A DNA stretch of 64,000 bases from Apostichopus japonicus (lineage: Eukaryota; Echinodermata; Holothuroidea; Aspidochirotida; Stichopodidae). This document shows, one piece after another, positions 15,317 through 62,766 of the stretch (the first letter of the stretch is position 1; every line of letters begins with the position of its first letter). The notes below the pieces were generated by a model that was given only the letters and a program-made list of their open reading frames with translations, was not told where the DNA came from and made no database searches. A program made the position numbers and the translations under genes. The stretch lies in the NCBI RefSeq assembly GCF_037975245.1, contig NC_092562.1, forward strand, positions 22,275,054 to 22,339,053, in the 5' to 3' direction.

Positions 15317-15384
<68 letters not shown>

Positions 15385-15397
15385 ATATATATATATC

Positions 15398-15473
<76 letters not shown>

Positions 15474-24691: not shown

Positions 24692-24696
24692 ATGAT
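24679..24696 (+). promoter_or_regulatory. Upstream ORF overlapping the start codon
   Basis: ATG CCA AAG AAA AAA TGA: the stop overlaps the main ATG as ATGA, and the uORF start has G at -3. The minus-strand gene has ATG CCT CAA AAA AAA TGA in the same place (15724-15707). This arrangement allows termination-reinitiation if the 5' UTR includes it, which is not shown. Confidence 0.5.
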
Positions 24697-24746
24697 TTGC
24701 ATCAAGTTGCTACAGATATTGATTTGCATCTTTATTGCAAATGCAG
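24692..24746 (+). CDS. Exon 1: signal peptide
   Basis: The exon encodes [18 protein letters not shown], a short hydrophobic leader with a small residue before the probable cleavage point, ending in phase 1 at GTAAG. The ATG was chosen because it starts the leader and because the paralogue has the same start at 15711. The only other nearby ATG upstream (24679) is in another frame and stops over this start codon. Confidence 0.88.
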
Positions 24747-27700
24747 GTAAGTTTGAATTTAAATGCTGGGTGCTGGCAGGGCCAGGCAGTTAATTATGGG
24801 GTGGTCAATAAACCAAAGGGTTGGTGCATAGTTATTGTGTGGTTAGTCGTATTACACAGTAGTATTAAAAATGATTAAATGCATAAAAAATAAAAAATAA
24901 TGTTAAATATATTTATATAAAAGGATCACATTTATTTTAGTTTTCATTTGTTGTTTTGTATAATTTCAGAACGAATTCCCATCACCATGGTGACAACGCA
25001 TCCGTTTCAAGCTGAATCCAGGAATCCTTTTCCTGAGTATTATTGCTACTTGAGTTCCATGGATAAAGATGCTGTGGTTTCTTCCACAAGGGTGTTAGAG
25101 ACAAGAGCTAATAATGATAATAAAAATGTTAATAATAATCCAGCCCCACCCATGCCTGTCGTGCAACAGGGTGCTATGTATCCACCTGATAGCGCTGTGT
25201 ACAAGGTGACTCTTAATTTTGGGGGTACTTCTGCAAATGCTTTTGCCTACGGAACATTTTCCTGTGATGCTTCCAGATCTGGAAGAGCAGACAGCACTGT
25301 GTCCAACATTCTCATGAACTCAGAGTGTGAGTATTACTCTTGGTACACATGGTTTATGCAGCAGGGAATGATGTAGTCAACCAATTCTTTGTAGCATTTT
25401 GAAGGTTGTGCATTTTGTTTGTTCCAAATTAGTATGGCTTCAATGTACAGAAACCGGAAATGACAAAAAAGAGGGGCGAAGATTACCACCTAATATCATT
25501 TTGCATAAAGTTATTTAGAACGTACATGTTTCGATCAATTGTTGCTTAGTGGTTATAATTTTCCCTCTTGTCAATCATTATATAATTACTTGTTCATTTT
25601 CCTACTCAAATTTACTTCTCCAGTGCATAAAATGGTATGTAGTATTTTGTCTAAGGAATTTGACACAGTGATCAAAATATTTCTCCTTTGATAATTAGTT
25701 TTATGTCTGTATTTCTAGATCAATAAGAGACATTTTCAACTACTAGGCTGTCTGTAGATAATCCAAAATTCAAATTAAATTCAAATTAAACTGTAGTCTA
25801 TTTCCTTTCATTCCTCTCATTACCTGTCTCCTATTCATTTTGTACGTACACCGTACAGTACATCTAACTTTGCCTTAGAACTGGTAGCATCCCCAATGAC
25901 CGTCTCTTAAGGTCGGTGCCCTCCGAATCTACCACCATTCAGAAATGTCATAACACGTTTGTCCTCACAGTTCTACTGTGTACTAATGATCTTCTGTTTA
26001 TACAGCTTATACTTACCCAGAGGATGGTTTAGTTACGCAGACTGTAAACATGGATGACAGAGGTGTACAGATTAGAATGGATGGAGCACAAGATGTAAAC
26101 AGATGGCACAGAAATAATCTGATTGATATACTTGGAAATCGCAACTTCGATTTCACTGGAATGAACCTGATTCTCAACTTCAAGTTAAACATCAGTAAGA
26201 GCAAGGATGAAGGATTCTACCAAACCCTCAGTGGTTCTTTAAATAGACAAGACTCACGTCACGGTCTGAAGAGATTGATTGTCAGAAGTAAGTACAATAA
26301 CGTGTTGGTTTTGGACATTCTACAGTTGAGTAATGCATATTATTATCAGTTTATTGGTGTGAATTTTGAATAGTAGTAATTTTTATAATAATATCATCCA
26401 AAGCTGAGTCACAATTATGGGAGATAATGCATTTTGAGAAAAACTTGTCAAAAGGGTTGGACCCTTTCATTTCAGAAGTGATTGAGAAAATTTTTTTCAC
26501 AGAATTACAAAATATAATATTTAGTAAGGTACATTCTGAACATTTCTTTTCGAAAACCTCTGTAGCTCTTTTGGTGTCAGTTTATTTCACAAAAAGTTGC
26601 TATAGTTGATTAAAAAATACATGGTAGCTTAGTTGTGCCCAGTGAAGTTAAAAATATTTATAGGCTTGATAGTATTTTCATATTAATATTAATAATAATA
26701 ATTGCAAAGGGATCACCATTTAGTTCTCAATTAGCCAGATTCCCTGTGAACTCGCTCCCTCTGTCTATTAGAAATTCGATTTCTGTAGTTTAAGGTCCAA
26801 GTTATTATGTTTCTTTTTAATCAGGTTTTCTTAATATGTTATAGTGTAATCTTAGCTGTTTTGTAAGAAAAGGTTAAGATCGTTGCTCTTACAGAGTTGT
26901 ATTTGGCGCTGTATAAATTATGTATTCTTATTATTTGTTCTTAGTAGACTGTACCAGGGTAGAACTTAATAGCTGGTTTGTAACAAGTGACCATTTTCTA
27001 GATGTTTTCATTATATTTTACTGTTCTGTATAAAGTAAATGGTTTGTTACAATACATCTTTCTTAGGCTGTCCATCCAATCACTGGGCCCCTCCTACATG
27101 CTATGGTGTCTGTGACAATTGTTACAATGGAGGAATTTGTGATGATGAGACAGGGAGATGTATCTGTCCTCCGGGATTCATGGGAGCAAACTGTCTGACA
27201 GGTTTGTTTATGACTATGTCATGTTTACTTGTATTCTTTGATTGACAAGTTATCTTTCCTCGTTAATGATATGATCTGTAATGTCATGAGTCTGTTGTAT
27301 TTAGCTTTGGTTCTGATGTGCTTACGTTGCCTATGATGTGATGAAATGAAATTTCCTGATACCTAATCTCATTGTTGAGGCAGGCTATACCTGTCCCTCA
27401 TGGTAGTGAAATGTACAAGGTGTAGCCATGGTGCGAATTGACCTACTGTAGCTATCTTTGTACTTTGCAATAATATTATTGTGAAATGTCTTTCTATGGA
27501 AGTGTTAAAGATTACTTTCTGTTTAGATAATACTTTTTTTTTACCACTTATCATGTCATGTTGTAGATAATATTTTGTTCTGTTCATCCTCGGTGTATAA
27601 TGTTATCTGTCTTAAACGTGTTACCAATAATTTGTATATTCGCTGTGCTAAAAATGTGAAGGTTACACCATTACACCAAGCTTGTGGGTTTGATATTCTA

Positions 27701-30700
27701 TTCGGTACTGTATGTGCTTTGCATCAATACGGTAGTTAGTTTGATCGTAGTTAGCCTTTACTTTTTAAGTTACACAAATAAACGGAACTTTTGGCAAAAC
27801 TGAACTTTCCTTTGTTGTGTCATCACCTCTTCTTTTGCACAGCATGTAGTGATGATCAGTTTGGTCTGAGCTGTGAATTTCGATGTACCTCTGATGATTG
27901 TAAAGGTCTGCAATTTTGTCTCTTGGATCCATATGGCTGCAGGTGTGGTGCTGGATGGAAAGGCCTTGACTGTCTTACAGGTAGTCTCAGGGTTATACAT
28001 ATAGGAGTGGGGTGCCCCTTGGACCTCTAGGGCTTGAAATACACTAAACAGAACTTTACGAAAAAGTCCTCTTTTTGAAAAAGCATTCTGCAACGTTGTT
28101 CGAACAGCCACTCCAGTCGGTCCGCATTAAAATGAGGCGGTCCCATTCCATATTCTTTTTGAAAAAATGGTTAATGTACGCCCCTAAATAAGTTGTGACA
28201 GTGACATTCTTTACATGATAATAACATTCTGCAATGAATTCCGAACAATGCCATATAGGCAAGTATTGTGTTGAATCGTGCTGAAGTAACTAGTTCATAT
28301 TTTTATTAGGCGTGTCATTCGGTTATAACCGCTCAACTGTTTTATCTAGCTTGATTACTGACCATGCCAGGCTGTCACATTTATAAATGTTGATGTCCAG
28401 TTTACAGTAGGGTCTATCCTGTGGTACCTTGCCCTGGCTTGGAAAATCTTGAACTACTGATGTATATCTCCAGGAATCTGTTCTAACACTTCTGTTCTCA
28501 GATAAAAGTTAGAAAGCCTGAACGTTCCAATCCTAGCAAGATTTTCTTCAAAGGCAAAACAGATATAGACAAAAAGGATAGACGCTAAAGTGGAATAATG
28601 ACTAATGAAAGGAGTAGAAAATGACAGGACAGTGGATACGAGATAAAAGGTCAAAAAACGGTTCTCAAGATGAAAGGTTTAAGAAAATTTCTACCCAGCT
28701 CACTTTGTACCATGTTAAATTTGAAAAAAAAATAGGCTTCCAAATGACTCAATGATAAGTTCTTAAGTACATTCTGGTCTTATCTGCTCAAAAATACAGC
28801 CTGTGGATCTTCCAAATTTGGTGCCAGCTGTCTTCAAGAATGTAATTGTGATGGTACATGTGATAGGTTTACTGGTTCTTGCAGTGGAAGCTGTGAGTCA
28901 GGATGGGGAGGCTTCAACTGCCAAAGTAAGTTACGTAAGGTATCATATGTTTGTAAACATAAATATTATTGGAAAAACAAATTCTCATAGATGTTTCAGT
29001 CATTTCGTAACATTTATTTGGTATTGAATAATCATTCCATCAAGGAGGATAAAGCCTAGCAATTTCTTGTTGTAAATTTGATATACATGGGCGAAAAAGT
29101 GTCATAATATCACTTCTCTCCAAAGCAGGCGCGGCGGAACGGAAAAATTATTGGGAGGGGGGGGGGGGCTAATATGTGGAGACTATCTAAGCGGAGCGCC
29201 ACCATCGGTTGGCGCGGAGCGTACAAAATTTTTTTGGGTTTTTCAAACCCCCCAGATGACCGGAAACGGCACTTCCCGAATGTTTTATGCTGCGAATACC
29301 TAGCCCTAAAACATGGGCCTCAAGTCTGCAATTTCTCAGATTGCACGTAAAAATCTGTAAAAACATTGTAATTTTTATATTCGATGGTGTTTTAAGAGAG
29401 TAGCTATTACTCGACGTGTACTCGCAAAGACGTTTTTGAGTGTAGTAAATTACTACTTGCAATTAAATGCAATAATTACAAGGGCGTCGGAAGCTATTTT
29501 TGATTGGTACGGCGATTCAGAGTGTGGCCAACTATCTTAATTATCGGGGGACGTTTGGTAGGTTAAACTAATGGAGAAAATTTTGAAAATATGCCTCCCA
29601 GATTGCAGGAAATGGCACTTCCCGAGCTTGAAAACAAGACCCCTGCCATGCCAGAGTAGTCACATTTAGCCTATAGTTGCCGTCATTATTATTGAAAATT
29701 ATTGAAACATATACCTCCGAGATTTTTTTCCCCATTTTTTAGTCCTACTTTTTTTTTTGCGTCGTGAATATTGGTCCGGCGTTCGCCGGACCTGCCCGTA
29801 CCGGCTCCGACGCCCCTGAATTAAATAAATGTCATAAGAAAAAACAGAAAGCATTTCTTAATGTCAACAAATGGGTAATTCCAAAACCATGTGCAGTTGC
29901 CAACAAATTTCTATGACCTAGCACTGTCATCATGTCATGAATGCATGTACCCTATACAGTACAGGTGAAATGCTAATATTGTGTTTTTGTTCGTTTAATA
30001 ATTGATTGCGTTTAAACATAAAGCCATGTTCCACGCCTTGCGTAGTGTAAACGCAAATGTTGATGAGTGTAGCGTTTAGCTTATTACCCTCTTATTTAAA
30101 ACACTAATATTCGATAAGGCATGATACAGACAATCAATTATCATATTTAATTATTACACCTATATAGTATACGTGTGCATCGGACAGATCGACAAGTATG
30201 CATTAAAAAATGGGCAGATGCACGTTTCGGAGCCTTGGTAAATATTGGGGGGGGGGGGGCTTATCATGCATTTGCCCCCTCAACTTTTTCATTGGGGGGC
30301 TCAGCCCCCCCCCCCCCCCCCCCAAGCCCCCCCCCCCCCGGTTCCGCCGCCACTGCTCCAAAGTAGCCTAATAACACTTGACAATGAAAACTTAATAGCG
30401 CTTGTCGACTATGGATCATGTCCAGTTGTATCTGCAGTGATTTTTATTGTTTAATTGCATTATCAGAGTCCACCGGGTGTCAAATCACTAAAATTATTAA
30501 TGCATTCCTCATGACTGGTCCATCTGTATAACTCCAGATGGCCTTCTCAATTAACAGGATCATTCCATATGAATTGTTCATTGGTTAACCGTAATTATGT
30601 TCATTAATACGGCTTGTTAGCTGTTACATCTTCACAACATAAAATCAGAGATTTTAACCTTTGTCCGTGATTATATTCTGTTTCATCATGCATATGTCCT

Positions 30701-33700
30701 CTTTCACTTCAACCTACCCAGAGAAATATAAATTGTGCAGCAAAACCATATTCCAGTTAAGGTGATGTAGATCTTTCTTTTCTTCACTTAACAGTTCCAG
30801 ATGTTTGTCCAGTTGGGTACTATGGGCCTAACTGTACATCAATTTGTAACTGTAGAAATGGTGTCCAATGTGATACTCTGACAGGAGAATGTCCTAACCA
30901 GCAGTGTGGTCCAGGGTATGTGGTGCCCCCCGCGAGTGTGACTTGTCAAGGTGTGTTTCATGCAATATGTAAAGGATCTACTTCATATAACATTCTGTGG
31001 AGATTATTATTAATGTTTACAGCAAGTCAAGTAAAGGTTAGCCACATAAGTCTCATTTTTTTGTTAATTTATACAGAATGCCAGGGAGCCTACTTTGGTC
31101 AGTTGTGTCAGGAGGAGTGTCATTGTGCTGAGGAAGCTTGTAACAAGCTGAATGGTCAATGCTGTGGTCAGTGTAAGCCTCAGTGGGTGGATGCATCCCA
31201 GTGTCTAGTAGGTCAGTTGATCAGCTGGAGTTTTCATTCCTGTGTATAAAGTGCTCAAGTTTTTGCAATTCTTGTGTTTTATGCATGCAGTGATGTTGTA
31301 AAAGCAAGTCAGACGTGGAAAATTATGCATCATGTTATTTTATGAGCAGATCTTTACATATGCAAGTTAGTATATATTGTAGTTCTCAAGTGATAATTTA
31401 GCCATGCAGTGGAAGGCAAGAGACTATGAAACACTTGGAGTAGCAGTTGGAAACAACTATTGACAGAAATTGTCTTTAATGACCTACCAATCCTTCAAGC
31501 TTTCGAAGTCAGGTTTTGGTCGATGAGATGAATCTAACTTTACTTTGCATGTCTTTTTTTTTCTTTCAAGGCTTTGAAGAAGCCACTTCATCTAAGATAA
31601 ATCCTGGAACAAGTACTGATGTTATTTGTGTTCTTCAGGGTTCTAGTCTTCTGCGTGCTGGTTTATCGTTACATTTATCAAGAGAGGAAGCCCAACTAGT
31701 GAGCAATGGTATTCAAGAACTAACTGCCTTTTCCGTTGGAGATGTGTATACAGGAGAGTTTAGAGCAGATAATGTAACTGATAGAGACAAAGTCTTCTGT
31801 CTGGTCGTTGATCAAGAAGATGAAATTGTAGCTGTCCTGGGTACTACAGTGAATGAGTATGGTAAGTAGTAATGCACATCATGAACTATCTGCCCCAATT
31901 TAAAAATATAAAACTGTAACAAATCCAATGAATGTTATGATATAATTTATTCGCTTTTGATCAATTTCTGCTGCTGTATGATAGAATTGTAATCACCGCA
32001 AACTGTTGATCTGCTTTAATAAACTGATCTTGAGGACAAGCAAAGTTATCAAGTTATAAGTTATCAAGCAAAGTTCACACAAAGACACACTAAAATTCCA
32101 TAGCTAGAAATTTGACAAAGAAGTGGAAATTATGCATATATGAGAGTGTCACACTGGCATCTAACTTGGTATCTCAAAGAAGAATACTTGGGTGGATCTA
32201 CACTGATTATCAGGACACAATCTTATTGTTTTCAGAGGAGAGCAAAGTTCATCTCCATTTAGTCAGTAGATATCAAAATTGCATTTTTTGTAAAGTATAT
32301 TGTAACTAAATGCATCTGTATAAGCATGCACAGATTGAAAATTGTTTTGTTTGTTCTATCGATTGGCAAGATGAGACACCTAGTTCAGTTATATTCCTTG
32401 TCACAAATAATTTCTCCCAAGTATGACTATTGCCTACACATTGGACTACTTTAAACTGCCCATCTTTCTCATTTTCTATGATTTTTCGGCTTGTTCAATC
32501 ATTCCTCCATATTGTTACCATCCATTGTTAACCGTATTCATCTGAACAGTTTTTGAGCCCTTCTTATTTATCTATTGTCTTCCCCAGTTCTTCCTGTTTT
32601 GACTTCTCCACCCAGTCTTCTTCATGCTAATGTGTCTCTTATTGCAATCGAGTGGAGCGCCTGGGATGCAGTCAAAGATATGGGTGAGCCTCCCATAGTG
32701 GCTTACATCCCTTACTATAGGAAAATATCAACCAAGGAATGGATAGCAGGACCTATCAATAACACCTCTTTAACATTTACTGTTGTGAATCTTGACAGTG
32801 ATACACTGTATGTGTTTAGTGTAGCTGCTGTCAGGGAGGGTGAGAATGGTGAAGGCCCCAGAAGTCCAGAGGTCAGCTTCAGAACTCATTGTGATGGTAA
32901 GTACTAACCTCCTAATACTTGCATTGCAAATTTGAATATCTGTGGTGATATGACAACTGTTGTTTTACATATTGATTAGGCTCCAGGTATGTCTCATTAA
33001 ACATGTGCTATCGTGTAAGCTAGGCAGTCTCTGATATTTATAAAGCTATGGCAAAAAAATGTGAGGGTACTTATTGGTGGTTGTGATGAAGAATAAAAAT
33101 CATATATTTTAATGCAATATGATGTCGTAGAAAATGAAATTAATCAATTTCCATTAGAACTTTGACCACAAAGAAGTACAAATATATGAGTTATAAAAAT
33201 GGAACTGGATGCCTGGTGTTAAAAAAATCAATATGAATATATAATCAAAAGGGTAAAGATGATCCATGAGATGGTATAAATATGTGATATACAGAGTTAA
33301 TGAAAAGTGAGTCAGTCTCCAGCAGGGAGTTGATGGTGTATAACACTCTTTGATATTTAATTTTTAGTTGCAGAAATCAGCCCAGTTGATGTTGTTGCTT
33401 ATCTTGATGTCATAAGCAATGCTGTCAATGTTTCTTGGCAGGTTTGTAAATTTGTTTTAAATATATCAGTACACCGTTTTGCATATTTCTACAAAGACCT
33501 CAGCTAGATGGTTTGGCCCTCGGTGCAAAATTAACATTTTTGCAGTTTCATGTCACTTTCTGGATTAATATTAGGTTTAGTTACGCAGCAAGTGAGTATG
33601 TCAAAAAGTGATGAATAAATTATTTTAGTTTCAATTCCAAGTCGTTTTGTTGTGGCAGACAATGTACTATGTATAATGAATTTACCAGGCTGGAGGTTGT

Positions 33701-36700
33701 TTGATCATAAATTTAACATATTTTGGCATACTCAAACCTTCCCTTACTCCATGAAGTGAATCACAATTGGCACTCTGTGATGTCACACAGCTAGTTAATG
33801 TTAAAATGTTGTTTTTATAAGTTTATTATCTTCAATTTGATGGATTAGTCAAATGTGAACATTTGAAGTATCTGCTTGGCTGTCAGTGTTCTCTGTATTA
33901 AGAATTTCTTCAAAATGTAACACTTCTACTAACATATTATTTTCCTCTGTATATTAATCATGAAAATATTGTAAAGAAAAACAACTAAATTTTAGCTCAA
34001 TTGTCTGGATTTCATGCACTTGTAGGATGCATTCACGAAAATATCAACAAATTTGAAAACTCTGTATTTTTAAGTAAATAAAGTTTGTGGATGTGGGTAT
34101 GCAGCCAATACAGGTATATCATTGGCAAATTTCGTTTTAAAAAATGGTGTCTATTGATAATCAATTTGAAATTTGCAGTCACAATTTGTAGATAAAGAAC
34201 AATTTCTAAAACTAAACGATTTACATATTGTGAAACGTACATCAATTGTTGTAAAACTATGAATTAGAAAAATGTCTGTTAACTATCCTACTGTGAATGG
34301 TAGGATGTGGATTGAACGAATGCTTAGCAAATGTTATCATGATGTGATAAGTTTTACTATAAGTAGACAGTGCTCAACATCAATTTATTTCAACTTCCAA
34401 AAGTGTGTGATGTATTAATAGTTTTGTCCTTCATAGCTTCACTGACACTTAATACTGCGATTGTTCTTCGTGATGGTTTGGATTTCGATAGATTCCTGAG
34501 GATATCGTTTGCACCACTGGTATTTTATTCTTCAACATCTATGTGGAGGAAGTTGGCATTGCTGGGAATCCTAAACTACACAAAAGAATAGGTGATATTC
34601 GCTGGGCTATCCTCAAAAACCTGAAGAAAGGAAATTACACTTTCCTGGTTACCTTCACAATAGACACCGAGAGTGATTTCAGTGAGACTAGTGAGGTAAT
34701 ATCAATTGTGGAGGACTTGACAGGAACACCGGATGCAACCACTATTCCAGGCACTACAGGTATCTCATGGACATGCTTCTTCTTTTTTTCATAATGGTGT
34801 ATAGTATATAATGGGGGGCGTTGTGGTCAAGGTAGTGGACTGGTGATCTAAGGATTACAGGTTCAAGCCCTGACCAGATCATTGTGTTGTGTCCTTGGGC
34901 AAGGCACTTTATCTCCATTGCCTCTCTTCACCCAGGTGTATAAATGGGGACTTGCGAGGTAACTTGTAAATATAGTTGCGACGTGCGCCGGTTTGTGGCT
35001 GCACGCTATGGGAAGTCCCCTGTGGAACACGTGGTTGTGGTGCCCCAGGAGAGATTGATTGAATTGCTCACACTTTCGTGTGTAGGAGTGACAAGTTACC
35101 AATGACCATGGCTAAGTTGTCAAAGCGCTATGATCTCGATGTAGCAACGCTATATAAGTGTCTAATATGTATGTATGTATGATCAATTTGAAATTTAGAT
35201 AATGTCAAGATAATGTATGTGTTTTAGATCCTCCTGCAAGCAGGAACTTGCGAAGAAGCCATCATTGGCTTTATCAAAGCCGCAAGCTGACCAAAGTCAG
35301 TCTCTTAGATTCATATTTAACGTCCGTGATTATGAATTGTCAATAACTCTGTAACTGGACGTAATACGTTAATCTTGGAGTGAATCGAACTGGGGACATT
35401 ATTATGGAAAGGCACCGTCGTTAACCACTGACCTAAGGCTCCACTAATGAATAATGAACAACTTCTAAAACTCAAACAATTTACAGATTATGAAACGAAT
35501 GTCAATTGTCAGAAAAACTGTGAATGAAAGTCACAAACTTGCTTAGAATCTTTTGAAAGCTACAGCTTTGTTGTTTGAGTATGATCCTCTTCTCTACCCT
35601 TCTAGCTCTCCTAATATTTGTTAACTATTTGGTCATCCATTAATAATGAATGACTGTCTAATTTGGGGGCATTTTGTATAGTATGCTCATGTTTTGACAT
35701 TATCACTCTTTGGGAGGTACAGTAGTTGTCATGTTTGGTACAACAACTGATTCAATAAACAAATCAATTGGTGCATTGGAATAGACTTGATTGTGGGGTA
35801 AGACAACCAGTAACCAACATGAATGCGATTGCAGTGTAGTTCTGATGGTCCAAAAATATTACCAAATATATACTGTCATAAATTGCCCTTTTATATAGAT
35901 CACCAGCTTATCAAACCAAAGTTTTAAGTTTTCACAGTTAAATCAGAATGAAATTGAGTTAAACAGGATTTGTATTTCGTCATTCTCTAAGTTAAAGTAA
36001 TGTCACAAATTACTGTTGTGTTTGTATGTATGTATGTGTGCGTGTATGTATGTATTTTACATCCTCCTGCAAGCAGGAACTTGTGAAGAAGCCATCATTG
36101 GCTTATCAAAGTCGCAAGCTGACCAAAGTCAGTCTCTTACATTCATATTTAACGTCCATGATGATGAATTGTCAACAACTCTGTAACTGGATGACATACA
36201 TTAATCTTGGAGTGACTCGAACTCGGGACCTTATGATTGAAAGGCACCAGCATTAACCACTGAGCTAACATTCCTTATTTGACTTCAGATAATAATATTT
36301 GTGGAGAAAAAAAATGTAGGTAACCATGACGGTTTGTTTTTCTTGGTAGTCATAATTACATACAATACATTAAATAGCATTTTATTGGTACATTTCTTCA
36401 GGTTTTCTCACAACAGCAGGTGGTACAGACACAGGCGTTGTGATTCTCGTAGTAATTCTGATAGTAATCCTTGTCCTCGTGTCTGGAGTGGCAGTTTTCA
36501 TTATTATGAGGTAACTTTTACCAATAAAATATGCCCTATATATTCCTGCAAAGTTGATATTGTTGCCTTCTTTCTTAGTCAAGTACATTTTGTTCATTTC
36601 CAATAGTCAAGAACTTTTCTTTCTCCTGTCCGATATTCAACTTTATTTATGCTCAAGATATTTTTATCTGTATATATACATGATGACCTTTCATAACCAT

Positions 36701-42700: not shown

Positions 42701-45700
42701 AATAGAGATTTAGGGTGTGAAGTATTTAATTGTTGTGGTGTTGACACTTACTAACAATACAAAGAAGTGACACTTCGATGAACTAGGAACTAAAATCTGG
42801 TCTGGTTTGTGACCTTTATATACTCAAATTAGGACACGGATCATGTGTTATTTATAAAACTCACACGTTTAAGTTTAAAAAGGGTAGTTTTAGTTGTGAA
42901 ATACTCCTTAAATATGACTTTTGCCAGTGTTTGGCACACACTACTACTTCATAAGTGCATTTAGTGGTGACTGTTAAATATGATGTAATGGTTTTTCACA
43001 CAGCTAATGGCATTAATCTGCCTATGCATAACATCTTCATCGTAATACAATTGAAAACAATCATATGTCAAGTAGAGAAAAAAATTATAGTATTATGGAA
43101 ACTCATTTGAAGTCCCTGAATTACATTTAAATCTAGTTTTCATTGGTAGCCAGGCAGACAGACTATGGTGACAATGTCTTCTAACATATTTTCATTTGCA
43201 GATGAATATTTTTCTGATTTTAGAATTAAAAAATATTATATTGGTGTTATAATTGAGTAGAACAAATATCATTTTTATGCAAAAGTTTCAAAGAAATTGT
43301 TACTGCTATGTGCAGTAGAGTACTTTTCTTTCACCAAAATAAACATAGTTTAGAATTTCATACCAATTGTTTCAGAATGAGAATATGTGCTTAGAATATC
43401 CCAATGTTTCTTCTGTTATGTGACATATCTTCTAGCTTTCTTGCCAGATTATGTTTATATACTACTATGATGTTTTTTTTTCTAACCATAGGATCGATGC
43501 TTGCAATACTGGCCCAACAAAGTTGGATCCAGTCAGAAATTTGGACATGTCCAAGTAACCTGGCAAGAAAGTACTGAATTTGCAGATTATGTGATCAGAA
43601 AACTGTTTGTTGTACAAGTGAGTAACCGTGCTCTTCATCTTCTATTAATGATTCTTACTGTATGCATATGGAGACAAAAACGGCTAAGAAATGGAACACT
43701 TTAGATATCACCTAGGAATTGAAATTTGATATTTTAAATTGAAGTAATGTACATAATACTGATTATCTTATCGCCCATCAAGTTTATTTGATTTCAGAGT
43801 GAAAGAAACAACCATTGTTGTATGAAACAAACTTTTACATCTAGCCTCCAGAGCTAATAATTCAATGAAGGTTTGCAACTGTTCACCTCATGGTAAATGG
43901 TGGTTTTACAATCTCATTATTTGTATGGTAAAATACACTCAAACTGTATTCTGGTATAAAAGGAATGTGATGATTAGAAGAAATGTGAGATGACCAGTTT
44001 GGAATTGTCCTCTTCAGGGTCAGATAAGCCCTCATATTAGGCTTCTCAGGTGAGATGGCAGATTGTAGTATTATTACATGTAACTATTCTTCTTTGTGCC
44101 AACAAGAAATGGATATTTTAGAAGTACCCTAACTGAAGCCAGCTAGGTTTCAATTATTGGATTAACTTTGCTTTTCCTTCTTCATACATGACGCTGCTAT
44201 TTGCACAGTTTGCATTACTCATATGTAATTGTCCAACTTGACCCCAATATTTGCAACTGGCAAAGCTGACAAAGCTGTTATGAATGGTGTAGCTCTGTTG
44301 TTTATTGGCTGATGAATATGTTGAAATATTTGATATTATTTTGCTCAAGTATTTATTCCCTTTGCAGACTATTGTTGTAATTGTGTGACTACCTAGTAGA
44401 GTGTGCGGTACTGTGGCACTACTATTATGTTATCTTTAATAACAGGTTCACTTTACTTCACTTCACCGTACTTTCGATCCAGCTAGAGTTCTACTGTGTA
44501 ATGTGACAGGAAACTGTCAGTACACTGCATTTTTTCTTAATTATTACAGATGAACATATGAGTTGATCAACTTGTGTCACATTTGTGTACCTCTCAGTAG
44601 TTTACTAATCGTCTTCAAAAGTTCCCCTGTGTAATGTGACATGTCAAGTACTATACCACATACACATATATAGCTTCAATGGCAATCTCTGTAGTTCAAA
44701 TCTATAGTAATATACCACATAGCTTCAATGACAATTTCTATAGTTCAAATCTATAGTAATATACCACATAGCTTCAAAGACAATCTGTGTAGTTCAAATC
44801 TATAGTACTATACCACATAGCTTCAATGACAATCTCTGTAGTTCATATCTATAGTAATATACCACATAGCTTCAATGACAATTTCTATAGTTCAAATCTA
44901 TAGTAATATACCACATAGCTTCAAAGACAATCTGTGTAGTTCAAATATATAGTACTATACCACATAGCTTCTATGACAATTTCTATAGTTCAAATCTATA
45001 GTAATATACCACATAGCTTCAATGACAGTATCTGAAGTAAATAGATCTATAGTACTATACCACATAGCTTCAATGACAATTTCTATAGTTCAAATCTATA
45101 GTACTATACCACATAGCTTCTATGACAATCTGTGTAGTTCAAATATATAGTACTATATCACATAGCTTCAATGACAATCTCTGTAGTTCAAATGCAGTGT
45201 CTCTAGTTAGTATTTGGTAATTAGGTGAACTGATATAGAAGAGTGTTTTTATTCATCAAAGTTTCTTTTATTGGTCTGCTATGACTTGTACCAATTATTG
45301 TCAAGATGCATTAAATTCTGCCTTCCTATGAGTCTAAGAGTTTAAATCATCTAGGAGCTATCTGTAGTAGCACAACGGTTCTATGAAAATTACATATCAA
45401 ACCGATCCACAAGCAACTTTAAGGTGTGCATACCTCGGTTGATGGAGCACTGCTGGGAAATGTAAACAGGAGGTTGCAGGTTCAAATCTGATTCTACTGT
45501 TGCCAATAATTTCTATGCTCTTCCAGCTTATGTTAGTTGGTATTTTACATGTCACTTTTGAAGAAACTTATTTCTTCTTGCATTTCCTTGCAGTTTGAAG
45601 AGTCTCGTGTGGTTCATCAATTTCACTTCATCTCCTGGCCTGACATGGGAACCCCTAAGCAACCAACCCCTTTAATTACATTCGCCCAACATGTCAAACA

Positions 45701-48700
45701 GATGCATGGTACTGAAGAGACAACACCAATGGTAGTCCACTGCAGGTGAGAAAAAAACCATGTTAAAGACATATATCTTTTAAAATAATAACTAATGAGC
45801 AAAATATTTAATTAGCATTTTGGTGTTGACTGTATCAATGGATGATGCTAATATCCATTATAAAAATCCTGAAACTACTGTTAAAGTTTTGCTTGCAATA
45901 TGGAGGAAAGGAGATTCTGTCTGAAAGTTACTGGGTCTTTCTTGAAACTTCTTACATACTTGGTTATCCCTCAGTCCCACTAAGAGGCACATATATTCAC
46001 ACCAGATAATAGGAAATCAGCAAGAAAAAAAAAACCCAGCTTAAATGAACTGCTTTAGCAATCAAGGTAAACAATTTGTTCCAAGATATTGACAAAATAA
46101 ATATTAGAGATTTCTCTTTGAACAAGGCAAATATTTAAAAAGTTCATACTGTACATCCATATTAATATAAAAAAAAATTGGAAATCATCTGGAAGGGATC
46201 TTACACACCTGTTATAGAGTCTTTACAATATCAAAAGAATAGGGTTGCCTTAGTAAGTTAAAGATAAATTTTGCACCAAATAGCATCTATATTACAATAC
46301 ACTATCCACCAAGGTTCCAACTTACAGGTTTGTAAGTTAGTACATTTATGGCATTGAAAGCTAAAGAGCACTAACTAGCTATGTACATCTTATAATGTAT
46401 GATAATAATTTCAATTTTCCTCTTTATTGTTGCTTTTTCTGGATATATTTTAATCATTTTGCATTGAATATGTAGGTCAGCTTGTTTGAAGATAATGTTA
46501 TTGGCATCAACTTCAAATTTATTTATGATTGTCGCTGCTCTTACAATAACTTCAAATGTCATGGAAGCAACTTTGTGAGATAGACACATATGAAAGGTTA
46601 TTATACCAAAATTTGACTGATGTTTTATTCTGTGGGATAAAATACCATTTCTTGTGTAAGCTCAAGTTAAATCACCATTATATAATAGTCCAACCTTAAC
46701 AACTTCTGAATGTTGGCATTTCACATGTTTTTTGTAATTCTTGATATATCACCTACATTTCTTTTCCATTATCCAAGCTATCTACATACTTGCATTAAAG
46801 TTAACATTTAAAGCATTCATTTTCCATGTGTTTCTCTTCCATTCAATTCTAGTGCTGGTGTTGGCAGAACAGGTACATTCATTGCCCTTTACAGTCTACT
46901 GGATGTTATTTTTACAGAGGAATATCTAAACGTCTTTAACTTTGTGGAGACGTTGAGAGAAAGCCGTATCAACATGGTACAGACATGGGTGAGCTGCAGT
47001 AAATATTGTTTTCAAATACCACTGAAGTAAAATACTCTCATAGATTTAAATAAATGTTAGGTTACGAATTGATAGGCTTCAAACAATATAGCATAAACTT
47101 TTACAAAACCATTTCACAAATTCAGGTCGCTATAGTGGTCAGATATTTACCTTGTAGGTATGTTTCAGTTGACGAAATTAGGATCAGAAACTTAAACACA
47201 TAAAGTATAAACAATGAATGAAAAAAGGAATAAACTAACTGTCCATTTACTTATTCATTTATTTATGGTTGTTTGCATACTGAGTTATACCTACAGTGTG
47301 TCATGGAATTTCTGTAATTCTATCTTTATCTTTTTGATGTACTGAAGGAAATGTTCAAGTCACATTTTTCTTTTTATTAATCTTAACCTCATTTAGATTA
47401 GTTTTGATAAATCATTGATTGATTTGCTATTCATTTATTTTATGATGTTGCTTTGACTACAGTATATTATTCTGTTTATTACTCTGTATCTTATATTTGT
47501 AATTCTTACTATAGTCCTGTGTAAAGTGTTTTGAGATATTCTTTTCTGTGAAGTGCTATATAAATTTATATATATATGATTAAAATATTATGATACCAAG
47601 ATATCAGATTTACCCAAATCTCTTCCCCCACCCCTTATAGAAGCAGTATGTATACCTCTACAAATGCCTGGTGGAAGCCTACCTTACCAATCAAACAGTA
47701 ACGACTAAACAGAAGATGACGCACCTCGCAGAAGACCTCAATCAGGAGGCGCCGAAGAAGGAATATGAGGTACGTAGGAAAAAGGAAAGGATCAACTGTT
47801 CCTTTTCAAGGGGATATAAAGTACGCATGTCAAGATGTTCCTTCGAGCACAATATTGAATCTGATTTTTCACCATTTATTCTTTAAATATGCCTTACAAA
47901 GTATACAAAGAGACTATAGTGGCACAACACTTGTTGTGTATCCCAAATTGGCAGCTTTTTGTTTTTTAATTTAGTTTTATTTACACACATTTAACTATCA
48001 AGTTGATGGCTTTTAGAATATCGTATCTGCATGATAGTGATAACTTGATATCAATCTCCTTATTCGCAATTTTGCAGGGACACATACATTGATACTTTAT
48101 GAAGAGATGCATCTTTTTTATTTCCCCTTTTTAATTCTTTATAAATAATTAATGTCACCTGCAGCTTTTGCAAGTCTTGGAGAAAGAAGATATGGTATAC
48201 ATTGATTACCTGAAGAAACAAGGTAAGCAGTACTATAAACCTTTCTGCATCTTGAAGTGATCTTTGCGCCAATCAATTTGGGAATAATTCTCTCTGAAAA
48301 TTAGTTAAATTTTTACATGTATTTGACTAATATTGCTATATATTTGTATCACTTTGTATTTTGTTTTTTGTTATGACAGCCAATGGAAGGAGACCCTTCT
48401 CTATCAGTGAAACAAGCTACAACCTAACGTTCTGCCTGGATGGCACTTTGCTGAAGGTATGCATACACTGAATGTCTATAGGACATTCTTCACTATGAGG
48501 AAATGTCCTGGTAAGATGGTACACTGGTATACTTAAAACGGGCCAGGAAAAGTTATCACAGTTTCAGACTGTCGAATACTGCAAGAATGATCAGGCTTGT
48601 TTTTAGGGTTTAGTAGTAATTTTTATCCTGCCCTATCTCTTCATCAGTTACAGCAAAGAACAGCATATGTACACAACTTGGTAGAACTACTGAACTAATA

Positions 48701-51700
48701 GATATGGTATTTCATGATGAAGATGTTTCTTAATTGCAACAATACTGCCATTCATAGAGGCTTGTGTGAGCTGGGAATATTTACTGTAGCACTTATACAT
48801 ACAAAGACTAGTATGGGATATATACTTTGGCTACTGGTAATTAGCATAGCAACAACTCACCCTTGTACATTTTGTCTCTTATAAGATAAACATTACCTAA
48901 CTGAGTGTGAGGTAGTGCCCATTAGGCTACCGATTATTTACGTAATGTGCATGTACTCTCTAGTATACTTTTGTTCTACTTGGCGTCCCATGTTCAGCGC
49001 TTGCGGTTTCGCTAAGTAAGCCCTGTTCGTTCTCTCCATATTCTATTCATTACGAAATCACCTTGCTTTACGTTCAACGGCAGCCATATTGTATATTACT
49101 ATTTTGTTCTCATTACCGTCATTTATTGAGAGATGTAGTTCATCAGTCAACATGTTAGAGTAGTTTACTCTTCTCTGGGACTAGATATTATCCACCGCCC
49201 TCTTACCATGCTTAAACATAACCCCCAATAAAGTTGCCACCACGTACAGAGAAGTACGGAATCTATTTGATTTGATTTGTTTTGTTTGTTCTTCCTTACT
49301 CTCTGTCATTACATGAGTAACCTTCAAGAATCTCAATAACTGTATATGATCTCCATTCGAAAAAAAAACAAAAAACTTTCAGAGTACTGTAATACTGCCA
49401 TTTATTTTCTGCAGTCTAACATGTATAACAAACTCCAATTTTACTTTGAACTAGCTGGTCGAATGCAAAGAGATGTGTTAAGTTTCATACATTTAGAACA
49501 ATTTATAGTTCAGTAAATGCTGTTATGTCATGCCAACTTCAATAAAGAAAAAATCTCATCTGCTTCCAATTTATTAATCATTTATCAAATCCTCCTTGAG
49601 CAGTGTCGGGGGAATTAAAAAAAAAAATAAAACTTTCAGGGTACTGAACTACTGCCATCTATTTTCTGCAGTCTTACATGTATAACAAACTCCAATTTTA
49701 CTTTGAACTAGCTGGTCGAATGCAAAGAGATGTGTTAAGTTTCATACATTTAGAACACTTTATATGATCAATAAATGCTGTTATGTCATGCCAACTTCAA
49801 TAAAGCAAAAATCTCATCTGCTTCCAATTTATTAATCATTTATCAAATCCTCCTTAAGCAGTGTCTGGGGAATTACTCACATAGGGTTAAGTAAACATAC
49901 ATGAATATTAAGTTAAACACAACAAACAGCAATGCTTTGGATGCAGGATAGGACACTAGACATTAATTACTGTACTATATAATGTATAAAACTGTTTCAT
50001 TTTCAATTCAACATTAGTTATATAATGTACAAAACTGTTACATTTTCTGTTACCTGTTAATTTCATGACCAGAGCTACAAAAAGAAGGATGCCTATGTAG
50101 CTACTAACTACCCACAAAATGGAGAAGTTGCAGGCTTTTGGAAACTTATCTATACCTGGAAGTGCCCTCTGATTGTTTCTTTGGACCAGCCAGATGACAA
50201 GGTTTGTGAATTTACATCTTTTTAAATAAGTTTCCCTGATTTGGCATATTTAGATTTGAGTTTTGATATGAAAAATCATAGCTACATTATCTGTTATTTA
50301 GATATCAAGTTCATTGGTACAATTTTAGCAGTAATAATAACATATTTTGTATCGATTATTAGAGTTTTAATTATTGTTATTAAATATAATTTTGTTTCTT
50401 CTCAGCCATGCTATTGGCCAGATAGTGGATCTGTGAAGTATTCTGTCTTTTCAATTGACTGTAAAGACACAGAAATCACACCAGATTTCACTATTCGTCG
50501 TTTCGAAGTCACACAGGGAAATGGAAAGGTTGGCATCTACTGCTTTTACAATTAATTTTGAGAGGAGTAGAGATAGGGTGTGAGTAGGGGGGGGGAGGGG
50601 GTTACCACATAAGAATAGGAAGCAGTATTAATAAGGAGTAGCTTGATACCACAACAACTCTTAATTAAGGTCAATTGAGAAAGTGACTCCATGACTTCTC
50701 CTGGACCTTGCTTCTAAGGTGATTATCTGCAAGGGTAAATCTGCAAGCCCCGCCCAACAGATCATGAGCCAATCAAATCACCCTCTTTTGTTTACGACCT
50801 TTACGACTAGGCTCACTTTCACTTTCACAGCTAGCCTGTCATAGGTCCCTGATCATCTTTCTATCATTCTTACTGCTGTAGCTTGTGAAATTGTGTCATT
50901 TCCTTCCATTGCAATGAATAAACAGGTGTTTTCAGACGTTTCCTCCATGGAATTGTAAAAAGTTGATGATAAGATTATAGGACTGCGTAAAATCTTGATC
51001 GAGCTGCATAAATGTGTAGACTATTTTCTTTACATTTGTGTAATGAACATGCTGACATGAACGTTCTCAGTGATTTTACGGTAAACAGTTTGCGTCATAA
51101 GGGCTACAGAAAATAAATTTCAGAACTTTCGATTGCGACAGCTTTCTCCATTAAACCCACTTGGTCAGAGTGCATTTAGAATGAGAAACATTGAATCTAC
51201 TTTGGAAGTTTGTTTTCCGAAATTCATCAGCAAACACATATTGAGACTTTAAAATCAATATGAAAATAAGTTACTTCAACATTTGAAAGTCGGGTTTAAT
51301 TGAGAATATTGTTTCAATTGAGCATGCAATGTAGTGACAAGTACGGTAGTACCATAATATTACTTGTTATTTAACTTAATTGAATTGCTATGATTATTTT
51401 GAACTTTTTTCCCTCCAGAATGCTGTCACTGTTCATCATTTACAATTGACATCTGGTCCGGCGAGAGGTGATTTTGATGCCTTCATGAAACTGATTAAGA
51501 GAGTTCAAAATCTTCAGATCATGGCTACCCTGGATGGACCCACTGTTGTACACTGTCTGTAAGTCAACAACTCTTGGTCTTCCTTGTAACCCTCCCTATT
51601 CAAAACCTTCACGTTTGCATTTCAAATTAGTCTACCACTGAATTATCTACAGTCTTGTATTAAGGCCTACATAGTTTTACATAGAGCTCTAGTATCAGTA

Positions 51701-52704
51701 TACTGGTGTTAATTACAGGTGGGCAAATCAAATTAAACAACATAGCTAGTATCAGTAAACTGGTGTTTATTACAGGTGGGCAGAACAAATTAACCTACCG
51801 AATCTTAAATAACTACACTCATTTCACATTCTTTACAAACATACCAGAATTGTATGCCCAGCAGAACAGTCGTTATAACATTGCCCATAGGTGAAAATTC
51901 AACATAGATTGAATAATTGTTTGATTCTGTATGTTTATGGGCTTTTTTTTTAAGTGTACTACAGATGATTTTAGGTGGCTTATTGATGCCTTAATTTGCA
52001 CAAGTTTGCTGAATTACATTCTATGTACATATATGAATAATGACCATCTAACTTTTTTCCTCCACTTTTGAAACATAATTTTGCTAAGCTCAACGACATG
52101 TTAGTGATCAGACCTTACACTACTTTATAGTCTTACCAAAGATGGATGTCAGAGGTACAAAAGTTCAGAGTTAAATGAAAGTTGATGCATTTGATTATAA
52201 CTTGTTATTTTTCAGGGACGACAGTGGGTTATGTGGGGTCTTTGTAGCCGTTCTGTTGGAGATTGAAAGATTCGAAGACACTGGAAATTTTGATGTTTTC
52301 AAAACAGTACGACAACTCAAAGAAACAAATGAAAGCATGCTCGACTCAGAGGTAGGGAATTTAGTTTTTATCTCTCAAGTTTGCCAACTGTTAATAATGT
52401 CCAAAAAATATGCAAACTTACAGTTTATGAAATATACAATATATCAACATGGTGTCATATACACAGCCCACTTAAGACAGTTTTGATCAAATTATCTGTC
52501 ACATTTAAGTCATGTTATATCCCCCAAACAGGGTGTCTAGCACTATCATGTTAACCCTATACCTTGAAACAATTTCATCTTAAGCTGTATGCATTGGGCA
52601 ATCGACAGTATTTTTATGTTTTTTCTTTTCAGATGGATTATGTTCTCTGTTACAAGATGCTTTATACTTACTTGCAGGGAAACAGCACTTACCAAAATAT
52701 TTGA
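24692..52704 (+). CDS. Receptor-type tyrosine phosphatase with Tie-like ectodomain (30 exons, complete)
   Basis: Exons read by eye: 24692-24746, 24970-25326, 26006-26287, 27067-27201, 27843-27980, 28800-28925, 30795-30950, 31077-31211, 31571-31861, 32588-32896, 33368-33441, 34492-34759, 36402-36510, 37482-37549, 39825-40090, 40531-40618, 40939-41015, 41964-42000, 42448-42545, 43492-43617, 45594-45745, 46853-46988, 47641-47769, 48165-48222, 48380-48456, 50073-50201, 50406-50528, 51419-51558, 52216-52351, 52633-52704. All have AG/GT borders and matching phases, giving 4347 nt including TGA (1448 residues). Order: signal peptide 1-18, Ig-like 19-137, Ig-like without Cys 138-231, five EGF modules 232-461, Ig-like 462-558, FN3 559-661 and 662-775, transmembrane 788-811, juxtamembrane tail, catalytic D1 about 905-1204, pseudophosphatase D2 1205-1448. 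The family removes phosphate from tyrosines at the plasma membrane. The ligand is unknown. I infer a membrane receptor whose Tie-like outside controls a phosphatase. The model is strong, but the transcript is not verified. Confidence 0.93.
24970..26287 (+). CDS. Exons 2-3: N-terminal Ig-like pair
   Basis: Exon 2 (24970-25326) has a Cys in a YYCYL context and a second in YGTFSCDA, the spacing of an Ig-like fold, with a Pro/Asn-rich loop between them. Exon 3 (26006-26287) ends in a KSKDEGFYQ strand like the DxGxYxC strand of Ig domains but with no cysteines, then LIVRS leading into the first EGF module. In Tie receptors two Ig domains also precede the EGF modules. The Ig assignment is by pattern only; the EGF boundary is secure. 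Confidence 0.7.
26720..26930 (+). mobile_element. Shortened LINE relic in intron 3 of the plus gene
   Basis: [10 protein letters not shown] at about 26745-26775 and the 3' tail TTTGGCGCTGTATAAAT are the remains of the same CR1/L2-like insertion seen in the left arm. Much of the upstream motif region is deleted. Confidence 0.6.
27067..31211 (+). CDS. Exons 4-8: five EGF-like modules, one per exon
   Basis: Each exon (27067-27201, 27843-27980, 28800-28925, 30795-30950, 31077-31211) is a phase 1-1 cassette carrying one Cys-rich module. Module 1 has [19 protein letters not shown]. Module 2 has [18 protein letters not shown], which closely resembles the second EGF module of Tie receptors. Modules 3 ([12 protein letters not shown]), 4 ([10 protein letters not shown]) and 5 ([12 protein letters not shown]) are of the laminin/MEGF style. 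Vertebrate Tie proteins have three such modules; five suggests exon-cassette expansion. The likely role is a rigid extracellular ligand-binding stalk. Confidence 0.9.
29126..30355. mobile_element. hAT-like MITE (1230 bp) in intron 6 of the plus gene
   Basis: The ends CAGGCGCGGCGGAACGG and (reverse complement) CAGTGGCGGCGGAACCGG are inverted repeats, flanked by a perfect 8-base duplication CTCCAAAG (29118-29125 and 30356-30363). The matching intron of the minus gene keeps the empty site near 10790-10830, which confirms insertion after the duplication. The interior has no transposase, and long G and C runs lie near both ends. Confidence 0.88.
29479..29818. mobile_element. Second MITE nested in the intron 6 element
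   Basis: CAAGGGCGTCGGAAGC at the left and GGCTCCGACGCCCCTG at the right are inverted repeats of hAT style. AATTAAAT occurs at 29819-29826 directly after the right end and at 29461-29468, ten bases before the left end. It is probably a target duplication with a short extra stretch. Confidence 0.5.
31571..31861 (+). CDS. Exon 9: third Ig-like domain
   Basis: One phase 1-1 exon encodes about 97 residues with a Cys pair (DVICVLQG and KVFCLVVD) about 60 residues apart, regular hydrophobic beta strands and an N-glycosylation sequon NVTD. In Tie receptors an Ig domain also sits between the EGF block and the FN3 repeats, so position and composition agree. The two arms are nearly identical here. Confidence 0.75.
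32588..34759 (+). CDS. Exons 10-12: two fibronectin type III domains
   Basis: Exon 10 (32588-32896) is a whole FN3 domain: proline-rich start, IEWSAWDAV tryptophan strand, YIPYYRKI strand and the [14 protein letters not shown] strand with the FN3 tyrosine. Exons 11-12 (33368-33441, 34492-34759) form a second FN3 with NVSWQ split at the junction, then FFNIYVEEV and [14 protein letters not shown]. The end carries a Thr/Pro-rich linker TTIPGTT to the membrane that is absent in the paralogue. Sequons include NVS and NNTS. Confidence 0.88.
34813..35180 (+). mobile_element. tRNA-derived SINE in intron 12
   Basis: The head has pol III promoter boxes: an A-box-like GTGGTCAAGGTAGTGGA and a B box GGTTCAAGCCC. 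The body ends in a CGCTATATAAG-type tail and a (GTAT)n repeat. The corresponding intron of the minus gene lacks it. Confidence 0.8.
35208..35445 (-). mobile_element. tRNA-derived SINE, family 2, minus orientation
   Basis: On the minus strand it starts with a tRNA-like head (A-box region with GTTAACG, then a degenerate B-box region) and ends in a GTATGT-type tail. The sequence GCAAGCAGGAACTTGCGAAG is shared with the copies at 18598, 36023 and 62767. It is absent from the left arm. Confidence 0.75.
36023..36276 (-). mobile_element. tRNA-derived SINE, family 2, upstream of the transmembrane exon
   Basis: It is about 125 bases upstream of exon 13. The head on the minus strand reads TTAGCTCAGTGGTTAATGC with a B-box-like GTCCCGAGTTCGAGTCA. 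The tail is (GTAT)n at 36023-36055. Confidence 0.78.
36402..37549 (+). CDS. Exons 13-14: transmembrane helix and basic stop-transfer
   Basis: Exon 13 (36402-36510) gives a short TTAGGTDTG linker followed by 24 residues rich in Val, Ile and Leu, a clear single-pass helix (788-811). Exon 14 (37482-37549) starts with RKRKLTRDK, the positive stop-transfer sequence that puts the C-terminus in the cytoplasm, and continues with VGYNQNE. Neither exon sequence resembles its counterpart in the paralogue beyond general character. Confidence 0.87.
39825..40090 (+). CDS. Exon 15: acidic juxtamembrane segment and PTP wedge helix
   Basis: The exon begins [12 protein letters not shown] and passes into a highly charged Glu/Asp/Ser/Lys stretch ([16 protein letters not shown] and following), which looks disordered and has casein-kinase-2-like acidic serines. 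The last 23 residues, [20 protein letters not shown] plus EFS, match the amphipathic helix that precedes D1 in receptor PTPs. Tyrosines are few compared with the paralogue. Confidence 0.85.
40531..47769 (+). CDS. Exons 16-23: catalytic phosphatase domain D1
   Basis: All diagnostic PTP motifs are present in order: KNRF and YDHSRVIL (substrate-recognition loop), [21 protein letters not shown], the WPD loop in FISWPDMG (Asp about 1082), the signature loop [10 protein letters not shown] with nucleophile Cys about 1115 and Arg about 1121, and the Q loop NMVQTWKQY. The signature loop is split by an intron between exons 21 and 22, inside the serine codon after the catalytic Cys. D1 therefore should be an active tyrosine phosphatase. 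Minor departures are KNRF instead of KNRY and YYNA instead of the commoner YINA. Confidence 0.95.
44651..45192. repeat. 49-base minisatellite in intron 20 of the plus gene
   Basis: About 10-11 imperfect copies of a unit containing CCACATAGCTTCAATGACAA and GTTCAAATCTATAGTA. It lies between the exon for the recognition region and the exon carrying the WPD loop of D1. Confidence 0.92.
45425..45500 (+). mobile_element. Possible tRNA-like SINE head in intron 20
   Basis: GGTTGATGGAGCACTGCTGG followed about 30 bases later by GGTTGCAGGTTCAAATCTG resembles a tRNA-derived promoter with A and B boxes. No matching body was recognised, so this is a fragment at best. Confidence 0.35.
47480..47580 (+). mobile_element. 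LINE or SINE 3' tail in intron 22
   Basis: GTGTAAAGTGTTTTGAGATA followed by GAAGTGCTATATAAATTTA and a TA tail is the characteristic 3' end of CR1/L2-type elements. No coding part was recognised before it. Confidence 0.5.
48165..52704 (+). CDS. Exons 24-30: degenerate second phosphatase domain D2
   Basis: The fold markers remain ([30 protein letters not shown], the paired HC of the signature loop), but catalysis should be lost. The WPD loop is replaced by TSGPARGD, and the signature loop reads HCLDDSGLCG, with Leu (about 1385) where the phosphate-binding Arg belongs. The Cys (about 1379) is kept. D2 inactivity is common in receptor PTPs, where D2 serves as a regulatory or docking partner. The protein ends soon after the last helix with NSTYQNI and TGA. 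Confidence 0.9.
49374..49875. repeat. Tandem duplication, 257-base period, intron 25
   Basis: Two copies start with AACTTTCAGRGTACTG at 49374 and 49631 and run to GGGGAATTA near 49618 and 49875, with few differences. They have no coding content. Confidence 0.9.
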
Positions 52705-53165: not shown

Positions 53166-53287
53166 CATTCAGATGAGAATTAAGTAATGTGGGATTAATT
53201 GGTTATAAATGTACCCATTATGACTGCACTCATTAGTATAAAAATCTTGGCTAAATATAAAAATGTTATATCCATTATTAGTGACGT

Positions 53288-57739: not shown

Positions 57740-58205
57740 TTCACTATAAATCTTCAAAACAATTTCATCAATTTAAGGCTTCACAGTAAATACCAATATG
57801 CAAATTTAAGCCATCAAAGCCTGTGCTATTTTTTTTGGCTAGATCTGATGCAGCCATACACCGAAGCCTTAGCGAAGCCATAGTGAAGGCATTCTTGGGG
57901 CAAATATAAGCCATCATTTATAAGCATTCGAAGCTTTAATGAAGCCTTAATGAAGCCTTCATTTTAGGCTTCAGGGCAAATTTATGCTAGCATTAAGGCT
58001 GCAGAGCGAATGCCTATTTAAAGCTTCAAAGTGAATACTTATATGCAAATTTAAGCCATCGAAGCCTTAGCTAATTTAAATTTTTCGGCTCTGGTGCAGC
58101 CTTAGCGAAGCCTTAGCGAAGGCATTCTTGGGGCAAATATAAGCCATCATTTATAAGCATTCGAAGCTTTAATGAAGCCTTAATGAATGCATTCATGTTT
58201 GGTAA
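57740..58205. repeat. GAAGCCTTA-rich tandem repeat
   Basis: A unit of roughly 245 bases occurs about twice; the stretches from GCAAATTTAAGCCATC to ATGAAGCCTTAATGAA recur. Inside it the 9-10 base motif GAAGCCTTA repeats many times. It directly abuts copy 2 of the 2.5 kb repeat. Confidence 0.8.
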
Positions 58206-58208
58206 GGG

Positions 58209-62745: not shown

Positions 62746-62766
62746 ATTCTTCCCATCCATTAGCTG

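Follow-up and report, generated by a model that had tools for sequence, protein, structure and literature searches.

A Tie-type ectodomain block on a predicted tandem receptor tyrosine phosphatase of Apostichopus japonicus, and its mirror-image sister gene

Tie receptors and receptor protein tyrosine phosphatases (PTPs) stand at two ends of one phosphotyrosine switch. The vertebrate Tie ectodomain has the module order Ig-Ig-EGFx3-Ig-FN3x3, and in tandem receptor PTPs the second domain, D2, is often inactive. According to excerpts of the papers cited here, the sea urchin Tie orthologue SpTie1/2 is a receptor kinase expressed in coelomocytes and in the axial organ (PMC12113024), Tie2 is regulated in mammals by the receptor phosphatase VE-PTP (PTPRB) (PMC10086590, PMC11425269), and PTPRB belongs to the R3 receptors, in which FN3 repeats are combined with a single PTP domain (PMC5336234). 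In the starfish Asterias, coelomocytes are reported to have both a Tie-2-like kinase and an F-like receptor phosphatase (PMC13409769). The 21 human receptor PTPs fall into 8 subgroups in a review, in the excerpted text of which no word starts with EGF (PMC10815196). Among paired receptors, CD300A and CD300C are described as having outsides held similar by gene conversion and divergent tails (PMC12447643), and the CEACAMs (CEACAM1/3) form another such family (PMC5112662). We examined a 64,000-nt window of the holothurian Apostichopus japonicus (NC_092562.1, 22,275,054-22,339,053, forward strand; positions below are those of the window), in which a predicted gene, termed gene B, joins a Tie-type block of ectodomain modules to a tandem receptor phosphatase and lies next to a mirror-image sister, termed gene A.

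Gene B and the extent of its Tie likeness

The exon borders of gene B were drawn by eye from the DNA and then checked by script. The model runs from 24692 to 52704 on the plus strand and comprises 30 exons with consistent phases and GT-AG borders at 29 of 29 introns; its reading frame of 4347 nt, a multiple of three, encodes 1448 amino acids followed by a stop. The chosen frame is free of stops in all 30 exons apart from the terminal one, and at least one stop occurs in 53 of the 60 alternative frames. The ends agree with those of the preliminary description, which had proposed a single phase-consistent gene at this position. The parts of gene B are as follows.

24692..24746 (+): exon 1, start codon and signal peptide (gene model; hydropathy window at residue 1)
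24970..25326 (+): exon 2, first Ig-like module, assigned by position, with no significant family match (gene model and searches)
26006..26287 (+): exon 3, second Ig-like module, the second half of which aligns with Tie2 Ig2 (gene model, profile match)
27067..28925 (+): exons 4-6, EGF1-3, collinear with Tie2 EGF1-3, with a DPYGC motif at 27926 (PDB Tie2 match)
30795..31211 (+): exons 7-8, two more EGF-like modules (gene model)
31571..31861 (+): exon 9, third Ig-like module, placed by its position alone (gene model)
32588..34759 (+): exons 10-12, FN3-1 (Pfam fn3) and FN3-2 (by position) (gene model, Pfam)
36402..36510 (+): exon 13, transmembrane segment (gene model, hydropathy)
37482..40090 (+): exons 14-15, juxtamembrane region (gene model)
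40531..47769 (+): exons 16-23, PTP D1 with WPD and [10 protein letters not shown] (gene model, Pfam, PDB, motifs)
48165..52704 (+): exons 24-30, PTP D2, degenerate (HCLDDSGLCG, without WPD), and stop (gene model, Pfam, motifs)

With the whole protein as query, Pfam returned Y_phosphatase (PF00102) over two stretches with an E-value of 8.5e-108 and fn3 with 8.7e-06; EGF_2 fell under its curated cut-off in this search (E 7.5e-04) and passed it when the EGF block was searched alone (E 2.7e-05). The hydropathy profile contains one signal-like N-terminus and one strong transmembrane segment at about residues 780-812, with no further transmembrane candidate in the ectodomain and a weaker window (1.79) at residue 1376, within D2. 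From the module list given in the preliminary description, the five EGF modules, the transmembrane segment, PTP D1-D2 and the first FN3 were thus recovered, whereas none of the three Ig exons gave a significant match when searched singly in PDB and Pfam, and the second FN3 had no significant Pfam match. Structure modelling gave weak models for Ig1 and for Ig2.

The top PDB match of the ectodomain is human Tie2, with 130 bits and an E-value of 6.6e-37, about 100 bits ahead of the next entry; it is followed by a netrin receptor FN3 (29.7 bits), another EGF protein (27.9 bits) and, far lower, SCARF1 (13.8 bits), which is the sole scavenger/MEGF-type protein in the PDB match list, no MEGF protein being present there. 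Within that list, the ectodomain falls on the side of Tie2 rather than of SCARF1. With a two-row profile built from genes B and A, the match reached further, to the second half of Ig2 (Tie2 residues 151-319, E 6e-38), and the next PDB family followed at E 0.003. The match is collinear through EGF1-3 and crosses the Ig2-EGF1 junction (RLIVR) into Ig2, with identities of 21/43, 24/46 and 16/40 residues in EGF1, EGF2 and EGF3, respectively. As judged from these alignments, homology with Tie is firm for one block, EGF1-3 plus the second half of Ig2, and positional elsewhere, and the profile comparison with Tie that had been proposed for the whole ectodomain held over this block and not beyond it. 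The Ig3-FN3-FN3 part was considered as Tie and was left unproven, its top matches being titin, DCC, LAR and RPTP-mu, with the Tie2 FN3 structures at E 0.26-0.29. Likewise, the claim of a Tie-order ectodomain stands in part: the order is Tie-like, partly by position only, and it is not identical, since gene B has five EGF and two FN3 modules as compared with three and three.

The cytoplasmic half is a tandem phosphatase, as described earlier, with PF00102 found twice and no kinase family among the Pfam matches. In the PDB comparison of D1-D2, among the best 60 of 244 matches, the closest entries are PTPRA (408 bits), PTPRE (386 bits) and LAR (376 bits). Against single-domain entries among the matches listed, D1 is led by PTPRT (232 bits) and PTPRA (229 bits), and PTPRB/VE-PTP reaches 185 bits. 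D1 contains a KNRY-type motif (KNRF at residue 944), WPD at residue 1080 and the CX5R motif [10 protein letters not shown] at residue 1114; in D2 the corresponding HCLDDSGLCG at residue 1378 is without the P-loop arginine, and WPD is absent. Since the D1 motifs are kept and those of D2 are lost, gene B probably encodes an active phosphatase with a pseudo-domain. With Tie2 at E 6e-38 on one side of the membrane and Y_phosphatase at E 8.5e-108 on the other, the central proposal of the preliminary description, a Tie-like outside and a tyrosine phosphatase in one gene, is borne out for the Ig2/EGF1-3 block and the tandem receptor phosphatase.

Further observations concern the introns of gene B. 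Past the exon 12 donor (34759-34795) the frame stays open for about 11 residues before a stop, and intron 12 contains an AATAAA at 35754; a soluble ectodomain isoform produced by read-through of intron 12 is possible on this sequence. Intron 20 contains a 49-bp tandem array of 10.7 copies (44670-45193), and in intron 25 a 257-bp unit is present twice with 94% identity (49360-49875).

The inverted sister gene and the shared arms

Gene A, unnoticed in the first reading of the window, runs on the minus strand from 15711 to 979 and is cut by the window edge. Seventeen of its exons were mapped, and their lengths modulo 3 equal those of gene B in 16 of 17, exon 10 being the exception. Gene A thereby repeats the Tie-type ectodomain, transmembrane and PTP order, which makes a false join in gene B unlikely, and its position next to gene B turns the case into one of a receptor pair. 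The DNA self-comparison revealed two inverted arms, 23114-34803 matching 17245-6145 and 35451-35629 matching 6088-5917, which form a palindrome with a 5.9-kb spacer. The features of gene A and of the arms are listed below.

6205..15711 (-): gene A exons 1-12, ectodomain as in gene B, with 90% identity across the 10 exons compared (mapping to gene B)
2449..3842 (-): gene A exons 13-15, with a transmembrane segment and Tyr-rich tail of its own (mapping, hydropathy)
979..1727 (-): gene A exons 16-17, in which PTP D1 begins (Pfam PF00102, E 1.9e-05; the PDB search agrees)
5917..17245 (-): arm A, covering the 5' flank of gene A, its ectodomain exons and the start of its intron 12 (self-comparison)
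23114..35629 (+): arm B, covering the 5' flank of gene B, its ectodomain exons and the start of its intron 12 (self-comparison)

The two genes differ sharply in the divergence of their outsides and insides. The ectodomains are 90.4% identical across the 637 codons aligned in exons 2-9, 11 and 12 (exons 1 and 10 were left out), with a synonymous divergence (dS) of 0.118 (bootstrap 95% 0.085-0.153), a nonsynonymous divergence (dN) of 0.049 and a ratio w of 0.41 (0.29-0.59). The transmembrane exon, in contrast, shows 44% identity over 25 codons, and cytoplasmic exons 14-17 show 35% identity over 156 aligned codons with saturated dS; when the poorly aligning exon 15 and the transmembrane exon are left out, exons 14, 16 and 17 give a dS of 1.65, with a lower bound of 0.84 and the upper end at the cap. 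The transmembrane, juxtamembrane and D1 exons of gene A are, from this comparison, homologous to those of gene B but old.

The DNA of the arms follows the same division. At aligned positions the arms are identical at 94% in exons, 89% in introns and 85% in the 5' flank, with values per kb from 0.79 to 0.955 (bins with more than 100 aligned bases); stretches of arm B without a match include 29129-30358 and 34804-35450. Both arms stop within intron 12, before the transmembrane exon is reached, and outside them the comparison of gene A (5910-1) with gene B (35641-52704) yielded four alignments only, of 16-26 bases, with a best E-value of 1.6e-04. The intron distance of the arms is 0.114, like the ectodomain dS, and protein selection cannot keep introns alike; the ectodomain half was therefore recently copied or converted, and the cytoplasmic half was not. 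The near-equal outside and 5' flank of the two genes are thus explained by an inverted duplication or conversion tract of 11-12 kb that spans the promoter side and exons 1-12. The palindromic layout would favour conversion.

Several features of the arms and of gene A were also observed. The stretch 34804-35450 in intron 12 of arm B is without an arm A counterpart and interrupts the arm match directly after exon 12. It overlaps an interspersed repeat at about 35213-35436, further copies of which lie near 18611-18836, 36046-36268 and 62766-62994; the repeat stretch starts, by eye, like a tRNA-derived short interspersed element, and ARAGORN detected no tRNA in it. A long TA dinucleotide array occupies 15322-15489 in intron 1 of gene A, and none is listed in arm B. 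In exons 14-15 of gene A (2449-3240, minus strand) nine tyrosines were counted by eye, as compared with three in gene B. The juxtamembrane tail contains YEN and YVN sequences, which could presumably recruit SH2 adaptors, and gave a sub-threshold Pfam match to SIT, an SHP2-interacting adaptor (E 0.015). Downstream of gene B, a 2.5-kb direct duplication with 99.4% identity (53270-55797 and 58191-60714) is either very recent or an assembly duplicate.

The receptor-pair reading and its alternatives

We consider it probable, though well short of certain, that gene B encodes a single-pass receptor tyrosine phosphatase with a Tie-type Ig2/EGF1-3 block outside and constitutes half of a head-to-head receptor pair with gene A. 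In such a pair, both receptors would respond to one ligand and differ in their cytoplasmic output, in the style of paired receptors. Upon ligand engagement or clustering, gene B would dephosphorylate its partners, possibly including a Tie-type kinase near the ligand, and gene A would contribute its Tyr-rich tail plus a phosphatase of its own; the shared 5' flank suggests that the two genes are possibly expressed together. Several findings weigh against this reading. The Tie yardstick was human Tie2, the PDB comparison containing no invertebrate Tie; the aligned half of Ig2 is identical to Tie2 at just 7 of 31 positions, so that the identity of the ligand, of angiopoietin type for Tie, is not transferable from Tie2; and Ig1, Ig3 and the FN3 region carry no Tie-specific signal in the sequence searches. 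Identity drops to 69% in the outermost block of the arms (23114-23719), the remainder of the gene A phosphatase beyond the start of D1 was not found within the window, and exon 10 of gene A (FN3-1) carries a 10-bp deletion that shifts the frame.

The deletion bears most directly on an alternative to which we give a real but lesser chance, namely that gene A is a dying duplicate, that gene B is the sole functional receptor without a working partner, and that their likeness records a recent inverted duplication or conversion. The frameshift implies that gene A may be dead unless the exon is skipped, or unless the deletion is an allele or an error, and the donor sites of exons 1 and 12 are displaced relative to gene B in this model. 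However, the other 16 mapped exons are open and have GT-AG borders, a transcript without exon 10 would stay in frame, the introns on either side of it being of phase 1, and the pairwise w of 0.41, though averaged over both genes, also speaks against a dying copy. Gene A may be a functional variant, a null allele or a recent pseudogene, or the deletion may be a sequence error. We regard as similarly possible, if somewhat doubtful, that the ectodomain is not ancestral to gene A and that a recent inverted copy of the gene B ectodomain was joined, by way of intron 12, to a different receptor phosphatase in the neighbourhood, or that the transfer ran the other way. The end of the shared DNA in intron 12, ahead of the transmembrane exon, and the four short alignments downstream would fit a graft. 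Yet the transmembrane, juxtamembrane and D1 exons of the two genes have common phases and 28-44% identity, so that they look like old paralogues which probably had related outsides already, and the spread of arm identity (0.79-0.955 per kb) is as expected of repeated conversion.

Two other explanations address gene B itself. That its ectodomain is a generic MEGF/scavenger-like EGF array, convergent on the Tie order, is improbable in our view: the five EGF modules instead of three and the weak Ig modules would agree with it, but Tie2 scores 130 bits, whereas the next EGF protein reaches 27.9 and SCARF1 13.8, and the collinear match runs from EGF1-3 through the RLIVR junction into Ig2. Least probable of all, to the point that we give it hardly any weight, is that two adjacent genes, or an assembly join, were taken as one. 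Intron 12 is 1.6 kb long and contains an insertion and one AATAAA, at 35754; against this, the ectodomain end has no stop unless intron 12 is read through, the phases agree across the intron, and gene A is arranged alike.

Returning to the receptor pair, antagonism of a Tie kinase by gene B is a plausible hypothesis. The hypothesis is encouraged by the regulation of Tie2 by VE-PTP, the expression of SpTie1/2 in coelomocytes and the joint report of a kinase and a phosphatase in starfish. The fullest form of this proposal combines a palindromic locus with two phosphatases that have a conversion-homogenised Tie-type outside and different insides, and that would compete with a true Tie kinase for the same ligand or dephosphorylate it, as a kinase-phosphatase pair arising through exon shuffling at intron 12; we hold it to be rather unlikely. 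A crude six-frame motif scan of the unspliced window, which a split kinase gene could escape and in which the flanks were not Pfam-scanned, revealed no true Tie kinase. The IHRDL matches at 54759 and 59675 were rejected as kinase candidates, both lying beside stops and within the duplicated stretches at 53-61 kb. If a phosphatase does carry a Tie-type outside, evolution would seem to have put the brake into the receptor itself, and the sister gene offers a testable case of one sensor with two cytoplasmic outputs. Given the starfish Asterias report, as excerpted (PMC13409769), coelomocytes are the place to look.

Comparison with known receptor systems

Predicted proteomes of invertebrates may contain receptor phosphatases that carry EGF modules. 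Among the matches listed in our literature search, which covered titles and the starts of abstracts, no Tie-type or EGF-bearing receptor phosphatase chimera was found; an earlier description is possible.

Gene B resembles the Tie receptor kinases (TEK/Tie2 and Tie1; sea urchin SpTie1/2, likened by its excerpted description only) in the Ig, Ig, EGF, Ig, FN3, transmembrane order, part of it by position only, and in the collinearity of the second half of Ig2 and EGF1-3 with human Tie2. It differs from them in having a tandem phosphatase in place of the kinase, as well as in its five EGF and two FN3 modules. With the tandem receptor PTPs of the PTPRA/E, LAR and R2B types it shares the transmembrane segment and D1-D2, whereas its Tie-type, EGF-bearing outside sets it apart. 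VE-PTP is likewise a receptor phosphatase tied to Tie2, a link which for gene B is suggested by the ectodomain; VE-PTP differs in combining FN3 repeats with one PTP domain, and the D1 of gene B is nearer to PTPRT and PTPRA (232 and 229 bits) than to PTPRB (185 bits).

The paired receptors CD300A/C and CEACAM1/3 are the closest parallel for the locus as a whole, with near-identical outsides, divergent tails and signs of conversion, and genes A and B are closely linked here. The CD300 and CEACAM receptors belong to the Ig superfamily and signal through immunoreceptor tyrosine-based inhibitory or activating motifs (ITIM/ITAM type), whereas both insides of the inverted pair described here appear to be receptor phosphatases. 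What appears to be new, as read from the sequence, is a receptor phosphatase with a Tie-type ectodomain block, set in a palindromic receptor pair.

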